This document shows, in pieces, positions 4,962 to 18,985 of a DNA stretch of 23,646 nt. The position numbers and the translations under genes are program-made. The DNA lies in IMG/VR virus record IMGVR_UViG_3300044996_000692, positions 1 through 23,646 of that record, one strand, 5' to 3'. The DNA comes from a virus. The notes under the pieces are model-generated. The model did not search any database. It was not told where the DNA came from and was given only the letters and a program-made list of their open reading frames with translations. The first letter of the stretch is position 1, and every line of letters starts with the position of its first letter.

Positions 4962-5264
4962 ATGGAAACAAAGCAGTATATCTGCAACAAGTGTCTGGGT
5001 GTCATTAACAGCAGCGGATATACAGTTATTACAGACTGCCACGCGACCGGAGAATTTCTCAATATCGCCATTATCGGAGGCATATTGCAGAAACCCGAAA
5101 TGCGCCCGCAGACAGTCCATGGCGTCATGCACTACTGCGGCAAGCACTGCCTGATGCTCGCGCTGAACACAATGGTGGATTCAATAAAAACAGGGAGAAG
5201 TACTGCTGAAACGGCAGCTGCTCAACCTCCCCTATCCCATCCCTGTGAAGGAGGGGGAATCTGA
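4962..5264 (+). CDS. Small Cys/His-rich, probably zinc-binding protein
   Basis: ATG 4962 follows AAAGGAGA at 4948-4955. The 100-residue product has CNKC near the N-terminus, a single Cys-His at CHATG, and YCGKHC near residue 64, a pattern expected to bind zinc. It is not the Mu Com protein, which is shorter and has a different Cys spacing. The last ~16 residues (from about AAAQPPLSHP onward) are encoded by a family A repeat at 5226-5264, which also supplies the stop codon, so the original C-terminus was probably replaced by repeat insertion. Function unknown. Confidence 0.65.
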   Translation: METKQYICNKCLGVINSSGYTVITDCHATGEFLNIAIIGGILQKPEMRPQTVHGVMHYCGKHCLMLALNTMVDSIKTGRSTAETAAAQPPLSHPCEGGGI

Positions 5265-5308
5265 CCACCCCTATCCCCTCCTTGCCAAGGAGGGGAAAAG
5301 GGGAGGTT
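5226..5308. repeat. Two tandem family A hairpin repeats
   Basis: A degenerate copy (5226-5264, with CCTCCCCTATCCCATCC and GAAGGAGGGGG arms) is followed by a good copy (5265-5308, with CCCCTATCCCCTCCTTG and CAAGGAGGGGAAAAGGGG arms). The first copy encodes the end of the upstream gene. The second ends in GGGGAGGT, which resembles a Shine-Dalgarno sequence. Confidence 0.9.
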
Positions 5309-5840: not shown

Positions 5841-5889
5841 CCACCACCCCTATCCCCTCCTTGCCAAGGAGGGGAAAAAGGGGAGGTTA
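5841..5889. repeat. Family A hairpin repeat
   Basis: CCACCCCTATCCCCTCCTTG pairs with CAAGGAGGGGAAAAAGGGG across a CC loop-edge. It sits between the membrane protein gene and the next small gene and covers most of that gap. Confidence 0.92.
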
Positions 5890-6603: not shown

Positions 6604-6648
6604 TTGACAGCCTTAATGGTTTTAACTTATCCTGATGATGTTAAAACC
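6604..6648 (+). promoter_or_regulatory. Candidate promoter overlapped by a palindromic operator
   Basis: TTGACA at 6604-6609 is a perfect -35 box; TATCCT at 6628-6633 is a 4/6 -10 box after 18 bp. A perfect inverted repeat, GGTTTTAAC (6618-6626) and GTTAAAACC (6640-6648) separated by 13 bp, embraces the -10 box, as expected for a repressor operator. Further out, GACAGCCTT (6606-6614) pairs with AAGGGCTGTC (6651-6660) with one bulge, so the same DNA could form an extended hairpin. Confidence 0.45.
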
Positions 6649-6786
6649 AGAAGGGCTGTCTCCGGCCTCCGCAGAGATGCGGGAAGGAGGTTTTTATTTT
6701 CAGGGCATTTATGCGCGCCCGAGTGTCTTCATGTCGCGAGGCATGGAGGGGTTCTTCTGGACCTTAACAGCACTCGGGTTTTTTTA
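6640..6786 (+). ncRNA. Candidate structured leader or small RNA in a 230-base gene gap
   Basis: If the promoter at 6604-6633 is used, the transcript would start near 6640. It would contain a first hairpin followed by T5AT4 (CCTCC at 6666-6670 with GGAGG at 6686-6690, inner CCGCA/TGCGG) and end at the terminator at 6718-6785. The frame is open through this region but has no credible start, and the strong structure argues for an RNA role. This is an inference; no known RNA family is recognised. Confidence 0.3.
6718..6785 (+). terminator. Rho-independent terminator-like hairpin
   Basis: CCCGAGTG (6718-6725) pairs perfectly with CACTCGGG (6771-6778), followed at once by seven T (6779-6785). The 45-base loop holds its own small stem, TTCATG (6728-6733) with CATGGA (6742-6747). 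It lies upstream of the gene at 6823 and could end a short upstream transcript or attenuate readthrough. Confidence 0.6.
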
Positions 6787-6822
6787 TTGCCCGTAAATGT
6801 TAAAACCAGAAGGGGGTGCCAC

Positions 6823-7633: not shown

Positions 7634-7718
7634 AGATGAACTGCTCAAAATCAAACGCACCCTGAATGATATCAGGGATTTGACCGGAGCGGAGATACCA
7701 AAACCGGACTGGATGTGA
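7578..7718 (+). other. Out-of-frame C-terminal tail of the KilA-N gene, or a small coupled ORF
   Basis: In the frame one base ahead of the KilA-N gene, an ORF runs to TGA 7716-7718. Its protein-like part starts near 7614 and reads as a charged helix (DELLKIKRTLNDIRDLTG) ending in EIPKPDWM. The final ATGTGA overlaps GTG 7715 of the gp16-like gene, a classic coupling arrangement, so this frame is very likely translated. The only ATG, at 7578, lacks a ribosome-binding site, which favours a frameshift from the KilA-N gene near 7605-7625. Confidence 0.45.
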
Positions 7719-8215
7719 ATAACAGAAAACCAATAGACGCTGTCCAGGTGAAGCTTATCCATATCGCGAAGGCGAAGCTCTGTTTGAGCGATGTGGATTA
7801 CCGCACACTGCTTTCTGAGCGCTACTGGGTCAACACCTGCAAAGAGCTTAGTTATGACGAAGCCACGGACCTTATCAAGCATTTCCAGACGCAGGGGTTT
7901 AAGATCATCACGAAAAGACATAACCATCTGACCTCCCCTATCCCCTCCTTGCCAAGGAGGGGAAAAAGGGGAGGTAGGGAGGCAGGGGGAGTTAACAATA
8001 TCACCCGGCTTGTCTCCCCCCAGCAGCTTGCGAAGATCGAGCACCTGCGGGCAGACATCCAGTGGCGCATCAAGCCGGATGGTTATTGCCACTGGCTCAG
8101 GAAGTATCTTAAAAAAGACCGCATCACAACAGAAAAAGAAGCCAGGAACGTCATCGAGGCATTAAAGGGAATGGTTCAACGGCAGGGGGCAAGGGAAAGG
8201 CAGGAGGCAGAATGA
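7715..8215 (+). CDS. GemA/gp16-like regulatory protein (DUF1018) with in-frame repeat insertion
   Basis: GTG 7715 overlaps the preceding stop. The 166-residue product shows the DUF1018 layout: an N-terminal half with KLIHIAKAKLCLSDVDYRTLL and a C-terminal half with QLAKIEHLRADI and EARNVIEALKGM. Family members (Mu GemA/gp16) are linked to late control of host supercoiling and gene expression. Residues about 72-93 (including SPIPSLPRRGKRGG) are encoded by a complete family A hairpin repeat placed exactly between the two halves, with the frame kept. The last ~12 residues come from a family D stretch, and the stop falls in a family B fragment. The insertion probably lengthens a flexible linker. 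Confidence 0.82.
   Translation: MNNRKPIDAVQVKLIHIAKAKLCLSDVDYRTLLSERYWVNTCKELSYDEATDLIKHFQTQGFKIITKRHNHLTSPIPSLPRRGKRGGREAGGVNNITRLVSPQQLAKIEHLRADIQWRIKPDGYCHWLRKYLKKDRITTEKEARNVIEALKGMVQRQGARERQEAE
7930..7975. repeat. Family A hairpin repeat inside the gp16-like gene
   Basis: A full-length copy, with CCTCCCCTATCCCCTCCTTG and CAAGGAGGGGAAAAAGGGG arms, is nearly identical to the intergenic copies at 5265, 5841 and 17830 but lies in frame inside coding sequence. It is translated without a stop. Confidence 0.93.
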
Positions 8216-8230: not shown

Positions 8231-8240
8231 AAGATGATCA

Positions 8241-8319
8241 GCCACAGAGATCACCGAGGTCACAGAGTTATATCAAAAAGAATGAAGCTTTCCTCTGTGT
8301 TCTCTGTGTGCTCTGTGGC
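8241..8319. repeat. Family C palindromic repeat (copy 1)
   Basis: GCCACAGAG (8241-8249) pairs with CTCTGTGGC (8311-8319), with further CACAGAG and CTCTGTG units inside both arms. It fills the gap between the gp16-like gene and the ribosome-binding site of the next gene. Confidence 0.9.
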
Positions 8320-8334
8320 AAATAAGGAGATTTT

Positions 8335-8622
8335 ATGATGTTAGACCCGGAATCAAAAGCGCTTTGGGACGAGCTGAAACAACAGGGTTCATGGGAAATG
8401 AAGAATGCAGAATGTGGAATGAAGAATAATGATCAACAGGGGCCAAGGGTTCAAGGGCTCGAGGGGCCAAGTGAAATATCCTTGCCCCCTGCCCCTTGCT
8501 GCCGGATAATGATGTCAATGAAAAAGAATGGCATGGACTTCCTTAATTTCTTTCAGAACGGGTTATTTGTCAGCAGCCTTGAAATCAATAACTGCCCGCA
8601 GTGCGGGAGGAAGCTTGACTGA
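8335..8622 (+). CDS. Small zinc-ribbon-like protein with nested in-frame repeats
   Basis: ATG 8335 (or 8338) follows AAGGAGA at about 8322-8328. The first 19 residues (DPESKALWDELKQQG) and the last ~35 (KNGMDFLNFFQNGLF to CPQCGRKLD) look like native protein. Residues about 20-58 are encoded by a family B half-element (8397-8430) followed by a family D palindrome (8436-8502), in frame. The CPQCG motif is half of a zinc ribbon, so metal binding may need a dimer or partner. It overlaps the Mor-like gene by eight bases. Function unknown. Confidence 0.6.
   Translation: MMLDPESKALWDELKQQGSWEMKNAECGMKNNDQQGPRVQGLEGPSEISLPPAPCCRIMMSMKKNGMDFLNFFQNGLFVSSLEINNCPQCGRKLD
8397..8502. repeat. Family B half-element plus family D palindrome inside a gene
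   Basis: AAATGAAGAATGCAGAATG is the family B arm. The family D part has GGGGCCAAGGGTTCAAGGG on the left and CTTGCCCCCTGCCCCTTG on the right, which pair imperfectly. Both lie in frame in the small zinc-ribbon gene. Confidence 0.8.
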
Positions 8623-9543: not shown

Positions 9544-9551
9544 GAGTCTTT

Positions 9552-9651
9552 GCCACAGAGGCCACAGAGGCCACAGAGGGGATAGGGAAAATAAAGATTC
9601 GGGTTTTTTGTTTTGAAAACTTTCCTCTGTGCTCTCTGTGTCCTCTGTGGC
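9552..9651. repeat. Family C palindromic repeat (copy 2)
   Basis: GCCACAGAGG occurs in tandem on the left (from 9552) and pairs with CCTCTGTGGC at 9642-9651; CTCTCTGTG units lie in the right arm. It fills the gap between the endolysin and the holin-like gene. Confidence 0.92.
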
Positions 9652-9676
9652 TGAAAATTAAGGAGGATTGGATTTG

Positions 9677-12454: not shown

Positions 12455-12473
12455 AGAAAGATAAAACCCCTCT

Positions 12474-12518
12474 GACCACCCCTATCCCCTCCTTGGCAAG
12501 GAGGGGAAAAAGGGGAGT
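12474..12518. repeat. Family A hairpin repeat
   Basis: CCACCCCTATCCCCTCCTTG and GGCAAGGAGGGGAAAAAGGG arms. Its right end, GGGGAG, lies seven bases before an in-frame TTG at 12525, so the repeat may have created an alternative start for the portal gene. Confidence 0.92.
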
Positions 12519-12539
12519 CAGGATTTGAGATTAAAGGCA

Positions 12540-14093
12540 ATGGCGAAGAATAAAAAACCAATAACAGACGAAATCGCGACAGTAGAGAAAGACATCTTCC
12601 AGGACTATATCGGAAGAACGCTTCTAAACCCGGACAAGGTGCTGAAATCAGAATCCGGCGGCAAAGGGATTGAACTCTACGAAGACCTCCTCCGCGACGA
12701 CAAGGTGGGCTCAACCCTCCAGACGCGCCGGCTCGCGGTTATAGGCAAGGAATGGGAAATGCGTCCGGCCTCGGAGAAGAGGCAGGATGTGAAAATCTCC
12801 GAATATGTAAACGACGTGCTTGCCGATTTCAATTACGACGCTGCGCGCGGCGTGCTTCTCTCCGGACTGGTTATGGGGTTCAAGCCCTCTGAAGTGATGT
12901 GGGATTATTCCGAGGGGGCCGTCTGGATCCGCGAGATGATCGGCAGGGCCTCCCGCCGGTTTGTGTTCGATAAAGAGCGCAGGCTCAGGCTTCTTACCCT
13001 GAAGAACATGGTCGAGGGCGAGGAGCTGCCCGACCGCAAGTTTGTGGTGTTCACGAACACGTCAGACAACGGCAGCCCCTATGGCGACGGACTCGGCAGG
13101 ATGCTTTACTGGCCGGTATGGTTCAAGAAGAACGCCATAAAATTCTGGCTGATATTCGCTGATAAATTCGGTTCTCCCACTGCTGTCGGAAAATATCCCG
13201 CAGGCACCGACAAGGTGCAGCAGGACGCCCTCCTCGGCGCCATAGAGGCAATACAGCAGGAAGCGGCAATCAAGATACCCGACAATATGGTCATAGAGCT
13301 GCTTGAGGCAACCCGCTCCGGAACGGTAAACACCTATGAGGGCCTCTGCGATTACATGAACAGCGCCATCGCGCAGGTCATGCTGGGGCAGACGCTTACA
13401 TCCGATATCGGCGACAAAGGCAGTTACTCGGCGTCGCAGACGCATGAGGGCGTGCGGCAGGATTATATCAAGGCAGACGCAGACGCGCTGTGTCTCTGCC
13501 TCAATGAATCCCTGATCAGATGGATCGTGGATTATAACTTCCCCGGCGTGACCAAATACCCGAAGGTATGGATCCGCACCGAGGAAGAGAAAGATTTGAA
13601 GCCGCTGGCCGAGAGAGACCAGATACTTCTGAACATGGGCGCGCGCATAACGCACGCGTATATCCACGACACCTATGGGATACCGGAGCCGGATAGCAAT
13701 GAAGAGCTACTGCAGCAACAGGGGACAATTCAGAATGAAGAATCAAGAATGCGGAATACAGGGCAACAAGTGGAAGGCAACAGGCAACAGGCGGAGGGGT
13801 CAAAAGAAACGCTTGAGCAGTTTGCGGAACGCAAATCAGCTTCTTTCTTGTTCCCGGATCAGCAGGCTGTTGATGACGCGGCGGCGTCCCTTGCTCCAGA
13901 ACAGTTGCAGCAGCAGATGCAGGGAGTGATGAAGCCTGTTATTGATCTTATAGCTGAAGGCAATTCCTATGATGAGATTATGGAAGCTCTCCTCGAGGCA
14001 TATCCCTACATGAAAACAGAAGCAATCGAGGAGATGCTCGCCCGGGCAATCTTTGTCAGCGAATTGTGGGGGAGGCTGAATGCCGGCAAATAA
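12540..14093 (+). CDS. Portal protein (DUF935, Mu gp29-like) with in-frame repeat insertion
   Basis: ATG 12540 gives 517 residues; TTG 12525 has a better-spaced purine stretch from the repeat. The body matches the DUF935 portal family: YEDLLRDDKVGSTLQTRRLAV near the N-terminus, VMGFKPSEVMWD, FADKFGSPTAVGKYPAG, and AQVMLGQTLTSD. Portals form the dodecameric DNA channel at the capsid vertex. Residues about 395-421 (IQNEESRMRNTGQQVEGN and on) are encoded by a family B half-element and a family D-like stretch, in frame, between the portal core and a helical C-terminal part. The 3' end overlaps the MuF gene by 14 bases. Confidence 0.92.
   Translation: MAKNKKPITDEIATVEKDIFQDYIGRTLLNPDKVLKSESGGKGIELYEDLLRDDKVGSTLQTRRLAVIGKEWEMRPASEKRQDVKISEYVNDVLADFNYDAARGVLLSGLVMGFKPSEVMWDYSEGAVWIREMIGRASRRFVFDKERRLRLLTLKNMVEGEELPDRKFVVFTNTSDNGSPYGDGLGRMLYWPVWFKKNAIKFWLIFADKFGSPTAVGKYPAGTDKVQQDALLGAIEAIQQEAAIKIPDNMVIELLEATRSGTVNTYEGLCDYMNSAIAQVMLGQTLTSDIGDKGSYSASQTHEGVRQDYIKADADALCLCLNESLIRWIVDYNFPGVTKYPKVWIRTEEEKDLKPLAERDQILLNMGARITHAYIHDTYGIPEPDSNEELLQQQGTIQNEESRMRNTGQQVEGNRQQAEGSKETLEQFAERKSASFLFPDQQAVDDAAASLAPEQLQQQMQGVMKPVIDLIAEGNSYDEIMEALLEAYPYMKTEAIEEMLARAIFVSELWGRLNAGK
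13730..13800. repeat. Family B half-element and family D-like stretch inside the portal gene
   Basis: ATTCAGAATGAAGAATCAAG and GAATGCGGAAT match the left arm of family B; GGCAACAGGCAACAGGCGG resembles family D. The frame is kept open through both. Confidence 0.7.
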
Positions 14094-15447
14094 CATAGAT
14101 CTGAAATACGCTATCGGGCTTAAACCCGAAGAAGCGATTAAATACTTCGACTCCAGGGGATATACATTTTCTCACGACTGGCAGGACACCTGGCAGGATG
14201 CCCACGCAAAGGCGTTCACTGTTGCAAAGGCAATGCGCATGGATGTGCTTCAGGACATCCGGGGCATGGTCGGCGAGGCAATTGATAAAGGCCTTACCCT
14301 GCGGGAATTTCAAAAGGCACTTGAACCGAAACTCAGGGCAAAGGGATGGTGGGGCAGCCAGCTTGCCGGAGATGAAACCCCTCTGTCTCCCCCCTTGGAT
14401 AAGGGGGGAATGAAGGGGGGTTATTCTGTGCAGCTCGGCTCTCCTCACAGGCTGAAGACAATTTATCAGACAAATCTCCAGACGGCATACATGGCAGGCA
14501 GATACAAGGAATTCGCTGACAATGTTGATGACAGACCCTTCTGGCAGTTTGTCGCTGTGATGGACTCGCGCACACGTCCCGCGCACGCGGCCTTGAACGG
14601 CAAGGTTTTCCGGTATGACGATCCGTTCTGGGATACCCATTACCCGCCCCTGGGGTTCAACTGCAGATGCAGGGTGCGGGCATTGTCAGATAAAAATATA
14701 AAAAGCAGAAACCTTTCTGTTGAGAAAAGTGAAGGCAGAATAACCTGGCAGGATGAGCTCGTCAGCAAAAAGACAGGAGAGCTGAGGCCGGTTGCCGCGT
14801 ATCACGACCCGCTTACCGGACAAAGCATAAAGACTGATGCGGGCTGGAGCTACAATCCGGGGAAGGCGTGGATGGAGCCTTTTACCCCGGGACCCTTTGA
14901 CCCTGATGAGTTTGAAGGCGGCTTCAAGACAGTCGGAGCAATGTATTATCCCAAACCTCCGATAGAAAAACTTCCGGCAAAGCCGCTGGCAAAAGAGATG
15001 CTTTTATCCCCGCATCAAAATACAGGAATGACCGATAAAGACTACATTAATGTCTTTCTGAAGGAGTTCGCCACAGAGATCGGCAAGCCGGTTGTCTATA
15101 AAGATGTGATTGGCGACCCGGTGATAATCTCTGAAGAGCTTTTTAAAGACCGTTCCGCGGGCGGTTATAAGGTCTTAAAGTCAGACAGAGAAATCTATCT
15201 GCCGATGCTTGCGGACACTATCAGGGACCCTGTGGAAGTATGGCTGGTGTGGGTGCAGGGGAAAGGGGAAGCAAGGCTCTGCAAGAGATATATAGGCGTC
15301 TATAAGGATGCATCCGGGAAGTTTGGCGGATACGCGGTTTTTGACCTTATAGATGATGTATGGCAAGGCACCACGGCGTTCAAGCCGAGAAAACTGGAGT
15401 ATCTTGATGACTACAGGACAGGAACATTGCTCTACACAAAAAAATAA
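14080..15447 (+). CDS. MuF head morphogenesis protein fused to a PBECR2-like nuclease domain
   Basis: Residues about 120-205 form the MuF (gp30/gp7 SPP1-like) domain, with FWQFVAVMDSRTRPAHAALN, YPPLGFNCRCR and the conserved Cys pair. MuF proteins sit in the capsid, may be ejected with DNA, and are often fused to toxins. Residues about 318-455 (KDYINVFLKEFATEIGKPV, then WLVWVQG, CKRYIGVYKD and the TGTLLYTKK end) match the PBECR2 domain (phage Barnase-EndoU-ColicinE5/D-RelE-like nuclease), predicted to cut RNA. Residues 99-115 are encoded by a family A variant, in frame, between the N-terminal helices and the MuF domain. No immunity gene is obvious nearby. Confidence 0.87.
   Translation: MPANNIDLKYAIGLKPEEAIKYFDSRGYTFSHDWQDTWQDAHAKAFTVAKAMRMDVLQDIRGMVGEAIDKGLTLREFQKALEPKLRAKGWWGSQLAGDETPLSPPLDKGGMKGGYSVQLGSPHRLKTIYQTNLQTAYMAGRYKEFADNVDDRPFWQFVAVMDSRTRPAHAALNGKVFRYDDPFWDTHYPPLGFNCRCRVRALSDKNIKSRNLSVEKSEGRITWQDELVSKKTGELRPVAAYHDPLTGQSIKTDAGWSYNPGKAWMEPFTPGPFDPDEFEGGFKTVGAMYYPKPPIEKLPAKPLAKEMLLSPHQNTGMTDKDYINVFLKEFATEIGKPVVYKDVIGDPVIISEELFKDRSAGGYKVLKSDREIYLPMLADTIRDPVEVWLVWVQGKGEARLCKRYIGVYKDASGKFGGYAVFDLIDDVWQGTTAFKPRKLEYLDDYRTGTLLYTKK
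14387..14422. repeat. Family A variant inside the MuF gene
   Basis: CTCCCCCCTTGGATAAGGGG is followed by GGAATGAAGGGGGGTT. CCCCCCTT pairs with AAGGGGGG around a short loop. It is translated in frame as a proline- and glycine-rich segment. Confidence 0.8.
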
Positions 15448-16308: not shown

Positions 16309-17420
16309 ACTGGTTTCCTGTATTCCGCACCGGGAAGCACACCGATTCCAACGGAAACGAGAAGGAATGGACGCGGGATGACCTCAATAAAATCGTCAGC
16401 TCATACGACCCGTCACATCATGAAGCCCCAGTGGTCATCGGACATCCTAAAGACAATGCCCCGGCGTGGGGATGGGTGGAGGCGCTGAAGCGGGAAGGAG
16501 ATATCCTGCTCGCAAAACCGGCGCGGCTTGTCAGCGATTTCGTGGATATGCTGAAGAAGGGCATGTTCAAAAAGCGGTCCATCTCTCTTTATCCGGATGG
16601 ATCTCTCAGGCATATAGGGTTTCTCGGAGCAATGCCCCCGGCAGTAAAGGGGCTGGAAGATATCCAATTTAATGAAGGAGGTGAAACAACGATTGAATTT
16701 GAAGAGATGCTTAGCCCCTCCCATTCTCACCCTGAGTCAAGGGGAGGTGAAGGCAGGGGTACGGAAGAATCTAAAAAGGAGGATAAGACTATGAAGTTTT
16801 TTGATTGGCTCAAAAGCCTCGCGCAGAAAGAGGGGGTGCAGCTTGACGACCTCCCCGCGACCTTCAGCGAGGCCGACGTCAGGGACGCTGCCGCAAAGGC
16901 CGCTCAGGAAGCCCGAGACAAGGCAGCGGCGGAATTTGCCGAACAGCAGAAAAAGAAAGACTCCGAAATTGCCGAGCGTGAACGAAAGCTGAAGGAGAAG
17001 GAGGCCTCGTACGCGAAGAAGGCCGTCTCTGAATTCTGCGAGGGACTGAAAAAACAGGGCGTGCTTACTCCCGCGATGGATAAGATCGGCATGGGCATAA
17101 CGGAGTTTATGCATCAGATATCCGCCATAGGGACAACCGTTGAGTTCGGCGAGGGAGACGCGAAAGGAAAGCAGACCCCGCTTGAATTCATGCAGGGGTT
17201 TCTCGCGAAACTGCCGAAGGCGATTGAGTTCAGGGAAGTCGCCGGGAACGAAAAGGACACCGGCAAAAGCGGCAACGCAGGCGAAAGGCTCGGCAGACTC
17301 GTAAGCGAAAAGATGAAGGCAAACAAGGAACTCACTTATGGAGCCGCATTCGCTGAAGTGCAGGAAGAAAATCCTGAGCTCGCGGCGGAATACGCTGAAG
17401 ACATGAAAGGAGGGAAATAG
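16299..17420 (+). CDS. Mu gp32-like protease/scaffold protein with in-frame repeat insertion
   Basis: ATG 16299 follows AGGGAGGA at about 16287-16293. Residues 1-130 match the Mu protease I family: FPVFRTGKHTDSNGNEKEW, SYDPSHHEAPVVIGHPK, then KKRSISLYPDGSLRHIGFLG and PPAVKGL. Family members cleave the scaffold during head maturation. Residues 160-373 are a charged helical scaffold, with a long coiled coil (EQQKKKDSEIAERERKLKEK). An internal ATG at 16791, with AAAAAGGAGG about nine bases upstream, would make the scaffold alone, as Mu makes gpZ from within gpI. The segment at residues 137-154 comes from a family A variant, in frame, exactly between protease and scaffold. Confidence 0.9.
   Translation: MALDWFPVFRTGKHTDSNGNEKEWTRDDLNKIVSSYDPSHHEAPVVIGHPKDNAPAWGWVEALKREGDILLAKPARLVSDFVDMLKKGMFKKRSISLYPDGSLRHIGFLGAMPPAVKGLEDIQFNEGGETTIEFEEMLSPSHSHPESRGGEGRGTEESKKEDKTMKFFDWLKSLAQKEGVQLDDLPATFSEADVRDAAAKAAQEARDKAAAEFAEQQKKKDSEIAERERKLKEKEASYAKKAVSEFCEGLKKQGVLTPAMDKIGMGITEFMHQISAIGTTVEFGEGDAKGKQTPLEFMQGFLAKLPKAIEFREVAGNEKDTGKSGNAGERLGRLVSEKMKANKELTYGAAFAEVQEENPELAAEYAEDMKGGK
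16712..16755. repeat. Family A variant inside the protease/scaffold gene
   Basis: GCCCCTCCCATTCTCACCC on the left and TCAAGGGGAGGTGAAGG on the right can pair through CCCCTCC/AAGGGGAGG. It is translated as a Ser-, His- and Gly-rich linker. Confidence 0.65.
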
Positions 17421-17829: not shown

Positions 17830-17920
17830 CCCCTAACCTCCCCTATCCCCTCCTTGTCAAGGAGGGGAAAAAGGGGTGGTGATGGGAAAAATAACGCCCC
17901 CTCTTAAATTAAGAGGGGGA
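17830..17920. repeat. Family A hairpin repeat and a second palindrome in tandem
   Basis: A family A copy (17830-17880, CCTCCCCTATCCCCTCCTTG and CAAGGAGGGGAAAAAGGGG arms) is followed by a different palindrome (CCCCCTCTT at 17897-17905 with AAGAGGGGG at 17911-17919). They fill most of the 131-base gap before the major capsid gene and may add mRNA stability ahead of a highly expressed gene. Confidence 0.9.
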
Positions 17921-18939: not shown

Positions 18940-18985
18940 AACCACCCCTTCCCCTCCTTGGCAAGGAGGGGAAAAAGGGGCGGTG
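18940..18985. repeat. Family A hairpin repeat
   Basis: CCACCCCTTCCCCTCCTTGG and CAAGGAGGGGAAAAAGGGG arms, lying in the 77-base gap after the major capsid gene. Confidence 0.92.

Follow-up and report, generated by a model that had tools for sequence, protein, structure and literature searches.

Rickettsia palindromic elements (RPEs) are repeats of 105-146 bp, described from Rickettsia chromosomes, that occur between genes and also in frame within conserved proteins of unrelated kinds, which remain usable (PMC2229807). REPs are short hairpins that are mostly intergenic, with some residing within ORFs where they encode peptides, and in recB of two Xanthomonas species different REPs are found at about the same site (PMC3733652). 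Multicopy sequences of Geobacter lie inside genes without causing a frameshift (PMC2996986, PMC2700814), and among the intergenic RU/ERIC-like elements of enterobacteria some are fused in frame to genes (PMC2759123). The repeats of Borgs evolve fast, occur between genes or in ORFs, give rise to disordered regions and have a conserved hot spot (PMC9879509).

We analysed a 23,646-base IMG/VR virus record of a Mu-like phage (the window, meaning this whole stretch), whose ORFs and Pfam matches include an AAA transposition-type gene, KilA-N, GemA, a terminase, a Mu-type portal and a MuF-like protein. Based on a hand-picked gene set, ~90% of the window is coding, and most repeat copies lie in the remaining ~10%. 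Ten perfect hairpins with arms of at least 9 bases are present, whereas eight simulated sequences gave a mean of ~0.6. The repeats of this phage belong to several families that are unrelated to one another: C-rich and G-rich hairpins, GAATGAAGAAT, GGGTTCAAGGG and CTCTGTG. Inverted CACAGAG...CTCTGTG repeats surround variable cores at 8238-8322 and 9549-9654 and at positions 140-307 of a second contig, L072, where the core contains a C-rich hairpin; these are nested composite repeats. An exact 18-base direct repeat, ATGTTAAAACCAGAAGGG, occurs at 6638-6655 and 6797-6814 inside one ORF. The MuF-like protein (14080-15447) has a C-terminal PBECR2 domain (barnase/EndoU/colicin-like nuclease) at residues 326-452.

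Table 1. Repeat copies and the genes and spacers that hold them, in window coordinates.
Feature	Position	Strand	Remarks
Family A copy	5264..5308	+	Outside the genes accepted in the analysis
Family A copy	5843..5887	+	Intergenic; nearest match to the gemA copy
gemA (Mu gp16-like, DUF1018) with insert	7715..8215	+	Pfam PF06252; orthologues in L094, L103, L104
Possible whole element around the gemA hairpin	7921..7994	+	Outer ends TAAC...GTTA
Family A hairpin unit in gemA	7931..7975	+	45 nt, translated as TSPIPSLPRRGKRGG
GAATGAAGAAT and GGGTTCAAGGG repeats in small CxxC (zinc-ribbon-like) gene 8335-8622	8392..8473	+	In frame
terL-portal spacer	12456..12537	+	L072 has 217 bases of different repeats instead
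Family A copy	12475..12519	+	In terL-portal spacer; absent from L072
GAATGAAGAAT repeat in portal linker	13722..13765	+	In frame; other repeats in L094, L098, L099
Second hairpin type in MuF-like variable loop	14388..14409	+	In frame, peptide SPPLDKGG; homologues without it
Imperfect palindrome in protease-scaffold linker	16710..16760	+	In frame; L098 short there
Family A copy	17836..17880	+	Intergenic; also in L072
Family A copy	18940..18984	+	Intergenic; also in L072

Family A has a hairpin core, CCCCTCCTTGNCAAGGAGGGG, with six exact copies in the window (at 5275, 5854, 7942, 12486, 17847 and 18951; Table 1) and none in dinucleotide-preserving shuffles of it. The copy at 7942 lies within gemA. 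Its surrounding unit is identical to the 5843-5887 copy at 44 of 45 positions and to the 17836-17880 copy at 43 of 45, establishing which repeat it is and bearing out an earlier note's claim of near-identity to intergenic copies. The folding energy of the unit is -37.9 kcal/mol (z = -4.05). Across the six copies neither stem has a mismatch, and the middle base reads C, C, C, G, T and G in positional order, a pattern that a constraint on structure or template-switch repair would give. In a comparison with MITEs, outer ends TAAC...GTTA were seen on several elements, those of L093 and L092 among them, and by this outer pair the gemA element may span 7921-7994 in full. Five of the six reading frames of the unit are free of stop codons, which would make survival inside genes easier. 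The 21-base core is present in only two other viral contigs. Genome contigs contained no exact match to a 37-base hairpin pattern, BLAST searches of plasmids and phages with the hairpin gave no match (the low-complexity filter may hide one), and in the literature neither the full core nor its peptides were found quoted in any paper.

The same note placed this hairpin in frame in a gp16-like gene, and the gene confirms it. The frame 7715-8215 is open across the hairpin and on through the C-terminal half of the protein. The Pfam GemA profile (PF06252, formerly DUF1018) spans the insert, matching residues 24-156 over profile positions 1-119 (E = 5.8e-13; 50.2 bits against a curated cut-off of 27), which places the product in the GemA family. 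The note's linker of ~20 residues holds as an in-frame linker but not in size: the unit encodes 15 residues, and the linker is 18 codons longer than that of a relative, L103. An AlphaFold2 model of GemA from 12 sequences has two helical parts (mean pLDDT 79.3, pTM 0.42); in the linker, which is predicted to be disordered, residues 68-75 and 83-95 have pLDDT under 50. The insert thus appears to sit where the least harm would be expected.

The window GemA as a lone query gave nothing confirmed among genome and viral contigs, and a transposase query yielded no relatives; the close relative L094 was found by scanning for a second hairpin family, and L103 (IMGVR_UViG_3300020236_000130) and L104 then came from an alignment of two sequences. 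All three are syntenic (51-61% identity), keep both flanks of the GemA insert and lack family A. The linker has 31 codons in the window, 13 in L103, 17 in L104 and 20 in L094. L103 reads GFKVVTKKYERRKTAPNLIRLVSKQQLAKIEHL at the insert site and is near-empty. The L104 linker is a short tandem repeat, CAAAGTGTCAAAGTATCAAAG, that also occurs outside gemA in this contig (alignment score 20 of 24). In L094 the DNA of the linker, AGCAGGGGTCAAGGATTCAAGGGGTCAAGGGGTCGA, is similar to window 8437-8473 (score 25; best of 60 shuffles 19), and the site is filled by a dispersed repeat unrelated to family A. Near-empty and differently filled states of one site are established by these three phages. More distant GemA proteins, from TerL-related records and with L081 not counted among them, also lack family A and differ in linker length. 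At the C-terminal end of L103 GemA (L103:7998-8564) the segment LRQAQDEPGG looks like a further in-frame repeat, presumably of a kind resembling the CTTCGACAAGCTCAGG type.

The claim that the insertion did not break the gene stands as far as is visible, with the residues after the insert matching all three relatives and the codon differences mostly synonymous. Among the 18 codons just past the linker, 7 are identical in each comparison; the others comprise 10 synonymous and 1 non-synonymous in L094, 9 and 2 in L104, and 7 and 4 in L103. Much of this conservation is older than the insert and indicates a constrained domain, rather than proving function after insertion. Alignment with homologues lacking the repeat, which the note had proposed as a check, yielded such homologues and the near-empty site of L103 in place of an exact empty one, as the relatives differ by ~40-50% in protein. 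A homologue with the same peptide but no DNA similarity to family A, which would have spoken against insertion, was not found in L103, L104, L094 or the distant GemA proteins. On these alignments the insertion of family A into gemA is well supported, with relatives too distant to date it.

The gemA insertion does not stand alone. In-frame repeats also occur in the small CxxC protein, the portal, the MuF-like protein and the protease-scaffold of this phage, four proteins that in relatives are shorter or otherwise filled at these places. The small conserved gene after gemA occurs in three states: empty in L103 (DLNDAEMSWCCKFL), with a C-rich hairpin in L094 (LITPPSPSYLKRGPEEN) and with GAATGAAGAAT/GGGTTCAAGGG in the window. 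In the portal linker, L094 has a TGTCATCC...GGATGACA palindrome, and L098 and L099 have CCCCCTCTTAA hairpins. Two other related phages, L092 and L093, encode a large portal-MuF fusion, one linker of which contains a clean hairpin in L093 and, in L092, what looks like a decayed hairpin with the same outer ends. Further ORFs with in-frame hairpins were found in L093, L094, L098 and L099. Wherever a window repeat lies inside a gene, the frame is kept and the repeat is located in a linker or variable loop.

Turnover of family A between near-identical phages is established by L072, which matches the window at 100% over stretches of 9,387 and 90 bases and has a wholly different spacer between them. 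The terL-portal spacer has 82 bases and one family A hairpin in the window and 217 bases of CTCTGTG and CCCCCTCTTAA repeats in L072 (91-307), with the replacement beginning just past the stop codon of terL and ending just short of the start codon of the portal gene. The MuF insert and two copies of family A are also present in L072. That so similar a phage has a spacer with family A replaced indicates fast turnover: provided that the assembly of both contigs is right, family A copies are gained or lost faster than point mutations accumulate. From the sequences compared, this rate, and with it the recency that the note suggested, is shown for the terL-portal copy and not for that in gemA. A bolder version, that active exchange swaps whole repeat cassettes at junctions and linkers far faster than point mutation, seems unlikely to us; if true, linkers of structural and regulatory proteins would be rewritten in frame within one population.

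Our preferred reading, which we consider likely, is that the gemA segment stems from a palindromic repeat, dispersed and non-autonomous, which came to lie in frame in a linker, one of a set of repeats that are often exchanged and filtered by selection. A copy would land where GemA is flexible, in the linker that joins its two helical domains, as part of a process in which dispersed repeats are often gained or exchanged. Copies that break a gene would be eliminated, so survivors would be intergenic or in disordered linkers, with the frame kept and no stop; those inside genes would be translated as Pro/Gly/Arg-rich peptides. Movement may be catalysed in trans by a host transposase or by recombination, the host chromosome may be the source of the repeats, and the peptide is probably neutral. 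We found no exact empty site, no target-site duplication by eye and no mobilising enzyme. The repeats are most likely passenger DNA left in linkers by selection.

Linkers could instead be diversified adaptively, with the phage benefiting from swapping repeat-encoded linkers and the inserts selected for; selection has been proposed for the amino-acid tandem repeats of Borgs (PMC9879509). The same linkers are indeed filled repeatedly, in different phages and with different repeats, and the GemA linker is predicted to be disordered. Nevertheless, the proteins and peptides involved are unrelated and near-empty sites serve several relatives well, so tolerance alone suffices and we hold adaptive diversification to be quite unlikely.

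Very unlikely, in our judgement, is a role of the hairpin as RNA in the gemA mRNA (translation, stability or termination) with its coding incidental. Such a role would fit the very stable fold, the stems kept beside a variable middle base, and the orientation of the family A copies in the window, all six of which face the same way on the coding strand. However, there is no Rfam match, no family A hairpin appears among those listed as terminator-like, and relatives lack this hairpin at the gemA site. We also considered uniform orientation as a sign of function in itself; this is weakened by the L092 copy, which has the opposite orientation relative to the L092 genes.

A native low-complexity linker that resembles the repeat in composition only is highly improbable: GemA linkers are basic and naturally variable in length, but the 44/45 DNA identity to an intergenic copy, with none expected by chance, and the orthologues without the segment argue against it. 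An assembly misjoin at the repeat is scarcely credible, even for a virus contig with dispersed repeats that can mislead assemblers and with gemA outside L072 coverage, since the two flanks of the insert are halves of a single gemA, share its frame and have homologues in relatives, and the MuF insert together with two family A copies is independently confirmed by L072.

Insertion as the origin of the gemA segment means that phage protein linkers can arise from non-coding repeats; here stray repeats repeatedly become linkers without visibly breaking genes. The earlier note had likened the gemA insert to the Rickettsia elements, a likeness that holds for behaviour and fails for membership. As with RPEs, one palindromic family has an in-frame gene copy together with intergenic copies. 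In contrast to RPEs, the family A unit is 45 nt long, at most 74, and is GC-rich; it is found in a phage, and repeats of unrelated families take its place at the same site in relatives. Family A differs from the RAYT-associated REPs of the GTAG/CGTC kind in that GTAG lies near two of seven copies, at differing distances, and CGTC near none of the seven, and also in its phage rather than chromosomal setting. The enterobacterial RU/ERIC-like elements are longer (103-168 bp) and MITE-like, and Borg repeats are tandem rather than dispersed and palindromic, and belong to archaeal extrachromosomal elements. By description only, the Geobacter multicopy families are similar, being palindromic and direct repeats that are intergenic and often several per region. 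Family A thus appears to work like RPEs and intragenic REPs, and on the features tested (size, tag) it is not a member of either. Bacterial chromosomes are known to carry palindromic repeats in frame, but the speed and location of insertion are hard to see there. New here are the phage setting, the unrelated repeat families that share linkers, and relatives with empty and alternative states; with a near-identical pair alongside related phages whose linkers are empty, hairpin-bearing or otherwise filled, the tempo and targeting of insertion become measurable.
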